Positions 881-7,104 of a stretch of DNA of 64,000 nt are shown one piece after another. Position numbers and translations under genes: made by a program. The stretch's first letter is position 1, and every line of letters starts with the position of its first letter. Under the pieces are notes generated by a model. That model ran no database searches. It saw only the letters and a list, made by a program, of their open reading frames with translations, and was not told where the DNA came from. This stretch comes from Provencibacterium sp. (GTDB taxonomy: Bacteria > Bacillota > Clostridia > Oscillospirales > Ruminococcaceae), in NCBI GenBank assembly GCA_022793895.1, contig JAAWDS010000010.1:62001-126000 (forward strand). Reading direction: 5' to 3'.

Positions 881-900
881 TAAGGGAAACAAAATAAACC

Positions 901-986
901 CGTGAGGGAGTAGCAGGCGTCTTTGGCGCAGCAAGTCAACATCCTGGCCGTTTCGGTCTGGCTTGCTTTCATTTGCGAGACTCATG
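901..986 (+). ncRNA. Putative yybP-ykoY (Mn2+) riboswitch aptamer
   Basis: CGTGAG(901-906)/CTCATG(981-986) can form P1. It encloses GGAGTAGC at its 5' side and GCGAGA at its 3' side, with an internal AGTCAACAT, all hallmarks of yybP-ykoY; lies upstream of a cation exchanger gene. Confidence 0.72.
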
Positions 987-1000
987 TATGGCTTTGGCAG

Positions 1001-1069
1001 TACATGGGGCAGGCTCTCCCCCGTTTGGAGGACCCATGTATGGCTTATCCGGCTATACTTGGGTCTTTT
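1001..1069 (+). promoter_or_regulatory. Expression platform: antiterminator TACATGGG/CCCATGTA versus intrinsic terminator GACCCATGTATGGC...GGCTATACTTGGGTCTTTT
   Basis: The two helices share 1033-1040 and are mutually exclusive; the terminator is followed by TTTT. Confidence 0.7.
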
Positions 1070-1097
1070 GTTATTCTAAAAACGGGAGGAAACGGAA

Positions 1098-4476: not shown

Positions 4477-7104
4477 ATGGCAGAGAAGAAGGCCCCGGAA
4501 GCCGCCAAGGTTGAAACGCAGGAGATGATCGATACCCTGGTGCGCAACGCGAACAAAGCGCTCGAAGCCTACATGCACATGACCCAAGAGCAGATGGATG
4601 AGATTGTTCATGCAATGGCGCTCGCCGGCCTGGATAATCACCAGCGGCTGGCGAAGCTCGCCGTAGACGAGACGAAGCGCGGCGTTTTTGAAGACAAGGT
4701 GATTAAGAACATTTTTGCAACCGAATATATCTGGCACTCGATTAAGTATCAAAAGACGGTCGGCATTGTGGACGAGAACGATATGGAGGGCTATGTCGAG
4801 GTAGCCGAGCCGGTGGGCGTCGTCGCGGGCGTCACCCCGGTTACCAACCCGACCTCCACCACGATGTTCAAATCGCTCATTTGCACCAAGACCCGCAACC
4901 CGGTCATCTTCGGCTTCCATCCCTCGGCGCAGAAGTGCTCGGTCGAAGCGGCCAAGGTGCTGCGGGACGCAGCCATTGCCCATGGCGCTCCGGAATACTG
5001 CATTCAGTGGATTGAGTTTCCCTCGATTGAGGCGACCAACGCGCTGATGAATCATCCCGGCGTTTCGATGATTTTGGCCACCGGCGGCTCCGGCATGGTG
5101 CGCAGCGCCTATTCCTGCGGCAAGCCTGCGCTCGGCGTCGGCCCCGGCAACGTGCCCTGCTATATCAATAAAAATGTGGATGTCGCCCGTGCCTGCAACG
5201 ACCTCATCCTCTCCAAGACCTTTGATAACGGCATGATCTGCGCCAGCGAGCAGGCCGCCATTGTCGATGAGGCCATCAGCGCTGAGTTTGAGAAGATTAT
5301 GAGCGGCTATGGCTGCTACTTCCTGCGCGGCGACGAGATCAAAAAGGTTTCGGATTATGTCATCAGCGCGGAAAAGCAGTCGGTCAACCCGGTCGTGGTC
5401 GGCCAGCCGGCTTGGTGGATTGCCGAGCAGGCGGGCGTGAAGGTCCCGGCGGGCACCAAGATTTTGTTGGCGCGGCTGGAGGGCGTCGGTCCTGCGTTCC
5501 CGCTTTCCCGCGAAAAGCTCTCCCCCGTGCTCGCCTATTTTGTGGTGAAGAATGAGGCGGAAGGCTTCCGCATAGCCCGCGAAATGCTGGAGTTCGGCGG
5601 CCTCGGCCATTCGGCGGTTATCCACTCGAACGATGCGGAGCTCTGCAACCGGTATGGCGAAGAGATGAAGGTTGGGCGCATCATTGTCAATTCCCCGTCC
5701 AGCCAGGGCGCGATCGGCGATATTTACAACACCAACACCCCCTCGCTCACCTTGGGCTGCGGATCCTTCGGCCACAACTCGACCACCTCCAACGTGTCTT
5801 CGGTGAACCTGGTCAACAAGAAGCGCATCGCCAAGAGGAGGGTCAACATGCAGTGGTTCAAAATCCCGCCGAAGATCTACTTTGAAAAAGATTCCATTCA
5901 GTACCTGGAGAAGATGCCGGACATCTCCCGCGCTTTCATCGTCACCGATCCGACGATGGTGAAGCTCGGCAATGTCGACAAGATCCTTTACTACCTGCGC
6001 AAGCGCACCGAGTACTGCCACGCCGAGATCTTCTCGGAGGTAGAGCCGGATCCCTCCAAGACCACCATCATGCGGGGCGTTGCGGCGATGAACCAGTTCC
6101 AGCCGGACGTTATCATCGCGCTCGGCGGCGGCTCGGCGATGGATGCGGCGAAGGGCATGTGGCTGTTCTATGAGCACCCCGATACCGATTTTGACGGGCT
6201 GCGCCTCAAGTTCTTAGATATCCGCAAGCGCACCTACCACTTCCCGCACCTAGGCGAAAAGTGCCAGATGGTCTGCATTCCCACCACCTCCGGCACCGGC
6301 AGCGAGGTGACCTCCTTCTCGGTCATTACCGATAAGGAAAACGGAAACATCAAATACCCGCTCGCCGACTATGAGCTCACCCCCGACGTGGCGATCATCG
6401 ATCCGCAGTTTGTCATGTCGCTGCCCAAGAGCGCGACCTGCTTCACCGGCCTGGACGTGCTGACCCACGCGATTGAAGCCTATGTTTCGATCCTCTCCTC
6501 CGATTATACCGACGGCCTGGCAATGCAGGCGATCGAGATGGTCTTTGAGTACCTGCCGCGCGCCTATCACAACGGGGCGACCGACGAGGAGGCCCGTGAG
6601 AAGATGCACAACGCCTCCTGCATTGCGGGCATGGCCTTCACCAACGCCTTCCTCGGCCTGAACCACTCGATGGCGCACAAGCTCGGCGGCGAGTACCACA
6701 TCCCGCACGGCCTGGCCAACGCGGTTCTGCTGCCCTGGGTTGTGGAGTACAACGGCGGCAAGCCCTCGAAGTTCGCCACCTGGCCGAAATACGGCAAGTT
6801 TATCGCTGACCGCAAGTACCAGAAGATTGCCAAGCACCTGGGGCTCAAGGCCGCGACCCCGGAGGAGGGCGTCCGCGCTCTGGCCGACGCTATCCGCGCT
6901 TTGATGAAGGATATCGAGTGCCCGATGAGCATTCAGGAGTGCGGGGTCGAAGAAGGGGTATTCTTCAGCGGGCTGGAGAAGCTCAGCTACCGTGCCTTTG
7001 AGGATCAGTGCACCACCGCCAACCCGCGTTATCCGCTCGTGACCGAGATCGAGGAGGTCTATACCAAGGCCTTCTATGGCAACCGGGACGCGAAAAAGAA
7101 ATAA
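4477..7104 (+). CDS. adhE: Bifunctional acetaldehyde-CoA/alcohol dehydrogenase
   Basis: ALDH domain (GMICASEQAAIVDE) fused to Fe-ADH domain (ALGGGSAMDAAKG, GLNHSMAHKLGGEYHIPHGLANA); ATG at 4477 preceded by aaggaagg. Confidence 0.95.
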   Translation: MAEKKAPEAAKVETQEMIDTLVRNANKALEAYMHMTQEQMDEIVHAMALAGLDNHQRLAKLAVDETKRGVFEDKVIKNIFATEYIWHSIKYQKTVGIVDENDMEGYVEVAEPVGVVAGVTPVTNPTSTTMFKSLICTKTRNPVIFGFHPSAQKCSVEAAKVLRDAAIAHGAPEYCIQWIEFPSIEATNALMNHPGVSMILATGGSGMVRSAYSCGKPALGVGPGNVPCYINKNVDVARACNDLILSKTFDNGMICASEQAAIVDEAISAEFEKIMSGYGCYFLRGDEIKKVSDYVISAEKQSVNPVVVGQPAWWIAEQAGVKVPAGTKILLARLEGVGPAFPLSREKLSPVLAYFVVKNEAEGFRIAREMLEFGGLGHSAVIHSNDAELCNRYGEEMKVGRIIVNSPSSQGAIGDIYNTNTPSLTLGCGSFGHNSTTSNVSSVNLVNKKRIAKRRVNMQWFKIPPKIYFEKDSIQYLEKMPDISRAFIVTDPTMVKLGNVDKILYYLRKRTEYCHAEIFSEVEPDPSKTTIMRGVAAMNQFQPDVIIALGGGSAMDAAKGMWLFYEHPDTDFDGLRLKFLDIRKRTYHFPHLGEKCQMVCIPTTSGTGSEVTSFSVITDKENGNIKYPLADYELTPDVAIIDPQFVMSLPKSATCFTGLDVLTHAIEAYVSILSSDYTDGLAMQAIEMVFEYLPRAYHNGATDEEAREKMHNASCIAGMAFTNAFLGLNHSMAHKLGGEYHIPHGLANAVLLPWVVEYNGGKPSKFATWPKYGKFIADRKYQKIAKHLGLKAATPEEGVRALADAIRALMKDIECPMSIQECGVEEGVFFSGLEKLSYRAFEDQCTTANPRYPLVTEIEEVYTKAFYGNRDAKKK

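Follow-up and report, generated by a model that had tools for sequence, protein, structure and literature searches.

What controls the gene for a CaCA-family exchanger that lies behind a strongly folded leader in the window, the whole 64 kb stretch of DNA analysed here? An earlier note on this DNA had proposed a yybP-ykoY-like riboswitch in which three competing helices turn the gene on when metal is present. Our analysis indicates that the leader is very probably a P4-less yybP-ykoY-family Mn2+ riboswitch that turns ON the CaCA exchanger by antitermination. The RNA of 893-1075 has a folding energy of -75.3 kcal/mol compared to -58.0 +/- 4.3 kcal/mol for shuffled sequences (z -4.0). Transcription from the putative promoter would be expected to start at ~888; this promoter is missing from the list of our consensus scan because position 2 of its -10 element is C. 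The features of the locus are collected in Table 1, of which P2, P3/L3, the absence of P4 and the likely promoter go beyond the earlier note. A strong inverted repeat at 781-822 (AAAGGACGCGCTG...CAGCGCGTCCTTT) separates the riboswitch from a class IV aminotransferase gene that runs divergently on the minus strand (start ~560). It is the source of spurious miRNA-family matches, and the miRNA and snoRNA matches of a relaxed Rfam scan were set aside as chance look-alikes arising from it.

Table 1. Features of the exchanger gene and its leader, numbered along the window
Feature	Position	Partner or parts	Strand	Basis
Putative sigma-70-type promoter	853-881	TTGACT (853-858), 17-base spacer, TCTAAT (876-881)	+	sequence reading
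yybP-ykoY-type aptamer, P4-less (three-way junction)	899-987		+	model R2, 92.4 bits, E 7.3e-20; compensatory changes
P1.1 switch helix, 5' strand CGTGAG	901-906	981-986	+	sequence; covariation
L1, 5' side GGAGUA	907-912	3' side GAGA, 977-980	+	invariant in 43/43
P1, 5' strand	913-915	974-976	+	U-A/C-G exchange covaries
P2 hairpin	917-929	917-921/925-929	+	covariation
P3, L3 and P3.1	931-966	P3 931-938/959-966; L3 ACAUCCU 939-945; P3.1 946-949/955-958	+	Rfam partial match, alignment, R2, PMC6754395
7-base linker UUUCAUU where helix P4 would stand	967-973		+	comparison with E. coli mntP and RF00080 members above cut-off
P1.1 switch helix, 3' strand CTCATG	981-986	901-906	+	sequence; covariation
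Hairpin 1 (anti-P1.1)	981-1008	CUCAUGUA / UACAUGGG	+	-11.4 kcal/mol; mutually exclusive with P1.1
Direct repeat CATGTATGGCTT, copy 1	983-994		+	
Antiterminator	996-1045	1001-1008/1033-1040, extendable by 996-998/1043-1045	+	-20.5 kcal/mol for 994-1046
Intrinsic terminator (hairpin 2) and U-run	1031-1069	hairpin 1031-1065	+	-20.1 kcal/mol
Direct repeat, copy 2, in terminator 5' arm	1035-1046		+	
Ribosome binding site GGGAGGA	1084-1090		+	sequence reading
CaCA-family exchanger, YrbG-like, 320 aa	1098-2060		+	PF01699 E 3.4e-53; TIGR00367 209 bits

Assignment of the leader to the yybP-ykoY family

A significant match to the Rfam yybP-ykoY model (RF00080) had been named as the check on the family assignment, and this check formally failed. 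At the gathering cut-off, which is 45 bits for RF00080 (Rfam 15), the scan of the window returned no riboswitch, and the relaxed scan gave RF00080 at 16.5 bits (E 0.015), covering P3/L3 only. The gathering scan of 20 relatives returned no riboswitch except an unrelated THF element, so that neither the window nor the CaCA-linked relatives have a gathering-level Mn2+ riboswitch match, and the RF00080 cut-off was passed by 0 of 199 relatives. The RF00080 model is without P1/P1.1 pairs, and the validated E. coli mntP riboswitch (L161) scores only 41.6 bits with it. Because this member also fails, the silence of RF00080 is uninformative and its gathering score is a poor criterion of membership; a new riboswitch class, which could have been read out of the failure, was dropped for the same reason.

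We trained an independent covariance model, R2, on 17 leaders, most of them of mntP and P-type ATPase genes; the window was excluded and leaders of the CaCA family were left out to avoid circularity. In all 64 kb, R2 matched the aptamer and nothing else, and none of the modelled pairs was non-standard. The closest relatives of the leader DNA in the same order, which include mntP and P-type ATPase leaders, are 81-86% identical to it (E ~1e-21). R2 also detects RF00080 members that pass the cut-off (L217, L219-L221), and our first custom model, R1, and RF00080 find overlapping loci in a sample of the phylum (G553, G701, G534, G587, G542). Since the custom models and RF00080 detect the same loci, the group to which the window belongs is a branch of the yybP-ykoY family, and the identity given in the earlier note holds on these grounds.

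The features expected of the family were then compared with the window. A loop of the L1 GGGGAGUAGC type is present (GGGAGUAGC at 906-914) and faces GAGAC at 977-981, which is of the [GA]AGAC type. The alignment of 43 sequences that underlies our invariance and pairing statistics has the L1 sequence GGGAGUAG, CAACA on the 5' side of L3 (A941 included) and AGAC without exception. A941, found in 43/43, aligns with the Mn2+ discriminator adenosine A41/A48 (ACA(941)UCCU in the window and ACA48UACU in X. oryzae; PMC6754395), and A909 is the counterpart of the A-minor adenosine A10 of L. lactis and X. oryzae, whose role is described in the same paper. P1.1 competes with a downstream hairpin, 981-986 being shared by P1.1 and hairpin 1. 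The four-way junction with P4 is absent and the linker stands in its place. P4 is not strictly defining for the family, the three-way form being reported for S. pneumoniae mgtA in a review (PMC9495176); given that report, the three-way junction was dropped as a point of novelty.

The fold is borne out by covariation. In the 43-sequence alignment, 90.4% of cells are paired compared to 80.9% after shuffling and at most 47.5% when the strands are slid, and 17 of 26 pairs show compensatory change, with 104 two-sided cells against 31 in the shuffled control. An independent leader set gave two-sided changes in 14 of 25 pairs. All five helices (P1.1, P1, P2, P3 and P3.1) are backed by compensatory changes; in P1.1 (L. 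lactis naming), which the earlier note had called P1 and had placed correctly, five of the six pairs change on both sides and 96% of cells are paired. L3 appears to be one base longer than in the window and X. oryzae in a P4-less subset (L036, L042-L045, L053, L054, L065-L067 and others). These comparisons of sequence give good support to the leader as a genuine yybP-ykoY Mn2+ riboswitch of the three-way-junction form, placed before a CaCA exchanger.

Proposed switch and a simpler platform

The strands of the proposed switch are present in the window. The antiterminator strands TACATGGG (1001-1008) and CCCATGTA (1033-1040) are perfectly complementary, the anti-antiterminator pairs CATGTA (983-988) with TACATG (1001-1006), and the terminator GACCCATGTATGGCTTATCCGGCTATACTTGGGTC is followed by TTTT (1066-1069), all exactly as had been described; 1001-1008 is thus able to pair with either 981-988 or 1033-1040. 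Copy 1 of the direct repeat was also placed correctly, and copy 2 starts at 1035 rather than at 1034. When 967-1080 was shuffled 2000 times with its dinucleotides preserved, a 12-base direct repeat arose twice.

The analysis shows the aptamer fold, the homology to mntP and P-type ATPase leaders, the conservation of the metal-site nucleotides and a platform whose strands exclude each other; we infer the steps of Mn2+ locking, strand capture and readthrough. At high intracellular Mn2+, the metal would bridge L1 and L3 and lock P1.1, which would deny 981-988 to hairpin 1 and leave 1001-1008 free. The free strand would then capture the emerging 1033-1040 before the terminator 3' arm (1051-1065) is made, resulting in readthrough. 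When Mn2+ is absent, hairpin 1 would open P1.1 and use up 1001-1008, the terminator would fold and the gene would be off.

Comparisons among relatives favour this switch. We looked at 126 leader entries, in which the window counts twice (once by itself and once among the 125 loci). A hairpin on the P1.1 3' strand is present in 124 of these, and a second, terminator hairpin was detectable in 54. For 49 non-redundant tandem leaders, hairpin 1 and hairpin 2 of the same locus pair at -8.8 kcal/mol compared to -7.05 +/- 0.38 kcal/mol when permuted, a value reached in 0 of 5000 permutations and in 1 of 5000 when the window was left out. The 5' arms of hairpins 1 and 2 also share longer words than permuted arms (8/3000), as would be expected if the terminator hairpin had been duplicated in some lineages. 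One leader, L060, carries two near-identical hairpin copies.

When the aptamer was locked in constrained folding, the antiterminator formed in transcripts ending at 1040-1060. Even with the aptamer locked, the full-length RNA favoured the terminator (-64.3 kcal/mol) over the antiterminator (-57.5 kcal/mol) by ~7 kcal/mol. Because the terminator wins at equilibrium, the ON state must depend on co-transcriptional kinetics, unless the thermodynamic model is wrong. The three-helix ON switch of the earlier note is supported by its strands, by the frequency of tandem hairpins and by the excess of own-locus pairing, and is plausible as a model for the window leader.

The same equilibrium result would suit a platform in which the aptamer is real and P1.1 simply exchanges with hairpin 1. 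Hairpin 2 would then be a separate terminator, and the pairing of the antiterminator strands a side effect of the similarity between the repeats. Many relatives do use one hairpin with the P1.1 3' strand as its 5' arm (no second hairpin was detected in 70/126). However, an uncoupled second terminator would keep the gene off with or without metal, and pairing within the same locus exceeds that of permuted loci. Hairpin 1 of the window has no U-run and is for that reason unable to terminate alone. We consider simple exchange unlikely and favour antitermination through 1001-1008.

Ligand, distribution and downstream genes

PMC6754395 and PMC11087558 describe the discriminator adenosine of L3 and the switching of P1.1. 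The adenosines A41/A48 touch the Mn2+, and stable docking depends on them (PMC6754395). Among 94 leaders sampled independently of CaCA, ~56 precede Mntp genes, 15 P-type ATPase, 7 CaCA, 2 GDT1 and 2 Na/Pi genes; classes were assigned by phmmer to seeds with Pfam checks on representatives, a few ORFs that are short or frameless have no class, and some loci entered twice through separate searches. Known yybP-ykoY targets include GDT1/UPF0016 genes (PMC7380456). Because L1, the 5' side of L3 and AGAC do not vary, and because the leaders lie mainly before Mntp and P-type ATPase genes, the association with Mn2+ export genes expected of the family, Mn2+ is the likeliest ligand and ON the likeliest sign of the switch. 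The same aptamer type was also seen before genes for a Na/Pi cotransporter, a DUF47/PhoU-like protein and an oxaloacetate-decarboxylase beta subunit (L026, L191, L139, L145), which are unexpected targets for a Mn2+ switch.

The element occurs in 227 of 396 genomes of the order (E <= 0.01), and 43 of 299 genomes in the phylum sample have a match (E <= 0.001), some of these being canonical members. It accompanies 40 of 80 CaCA loci gathered by protein similarity, always on the coding strand and just upstream of the gene. The genome of the window has one copy of the aptamer. Both the aptamer and this CaCA gene are missing from two further genomes of the genus, which hints that the two may be gained or lost as one unit. 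Outside the window, the leader of mntP in this genome (L205, G000:C38, mntP at 5269) has kept a promoter, GTGAGGGAG, GCATGGAGTC and a hairpin resembling a terminator, but no aptamer core, and looks like a riboswitch relic left by internal deletion; the aptamer is absent from mntP leaders of the same genus as well.

The CaCA gene announced downstream by the earlier note was confirmed, the TIGR00367 score of its product being 209.3 bits with a curated cut-off of 179.65. Its first metal-site motif is ATTxPE and its second GTSLPE, as in L031-L110. Classical CaCA exchangers have GTSxPE as the first metal-site motif. A difference in this motif specific to riboswitch-linked CaCA proteins was considered and dropped, ATTxPE being found in linked and unlinked proteins. 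Under the Mn2+ reading, the most likely role of the protein would be to export Mn2+, alone or together with Ca2+.

Since the annotation of the gene is calcium/sodium antiporter, the same aptamer could, where it precedes CaCA genes, respond mainly to Ca2+ (or to Ca2+ and Mn2+) and govern the efflux of calcium. Such P4-less aptamers would be suspected yybP variants with a shifted ion preference, and a calcium exchanger would here be under an RNA switch that answers to calcium. PMC7266159 expects the family to have variants for other divalent ions, and the review PMC9495176 states that the three-way aptamer of S. pneumoniae mgtA binds Ca2+ tighter than Mn2+, though Mn2+ activates better. Against this, L1 and the 5' side of L3, discriminator adenosine included, are of the Mn2+ type, the aptamer is closely similar to those before mntP genes, and the core showed no CaCA-specific change. 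We regard calcium sensing as improbable, whether alone or with Mn2+. Chance hairpins or an unrelated attenuator with no metal aptamer would agree with the Rfam match under the cut-off and the lack of gathering-level Mn2+ riboswitch matches in the window and CaCA-linked relatives, but this reading is refuted by the independent model (E 7e-20), the covariation and the occurrence in 227/396 genomes, and its probability is negligible.

Comparison with known systems

The riboswitch of the window is real but a largely expected member of a known Mn2+-switch family. The three-way-junction form is already known; what makes the element interesting is how large the unannotated branch is, that the target is a CaCA gene and that the platform has two hairpins in tandem. 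The compact P4-less branch is common in the order (227/396) yet invisible at the Rfam cut-off (0/199). CaCA exchangers are pointed to as candidate Mn2+ exporters; our literature search, whose scope stopped short of the target lists of primary riboswitch papers, returned no paper naming a yybP-ykoY/CaCA pairing. The tandem hairpins suggest a simple evolutionary route in which a duplicated terminator hairpin provides the complementarity that the antiterminator needs, and the switch keeps its sign.

With canonical yybP-ykoY elements (RF00080; L. lactis yoaB, X. oryzae yebN, E. coli mntP) the window leader shares P1.1/L1/P1, P2 and P3/L3/P3.1, the GGGAGUAG, CAACA and [GA]AGAC signatures, the L3 discriminator adenosine, and a P1.1 3' strand that also builds a downstream hairpin, with metal expected to mean ON. 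It differs in falling under the Rfam cut-off and in preceding a CaCA gene. Canonical members (E. coli mntP, L217, L219-L221) have P4, whereas the branch of the window has a UUAAAU-like linker. In L. lactis, the P1.1 3' strand partitions between P1.1 and a single terminator, and Mn2+ turns the switch ON (PMC11087558); the window has two tandem hairpins instead. The S. pneumoniae mgtA element (Martin et al. 2019, as covered in PMC9495176) shares the three-way junction, transcriptional ON control and a cation export gene, and its aptamer is described there as responding to Mn2+ and binding Ca2+. That gene encodes a P-type ATPase rather than a CaCA exchanger. Closest are the P4-less mntP and P-type ATPase leaders of the same order (e.g. 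L002, L003), whose aptamer DNA is 81-86% identical and has the same fold, although they precede other genes and many, unlike the window, have a single-hairpin platform.
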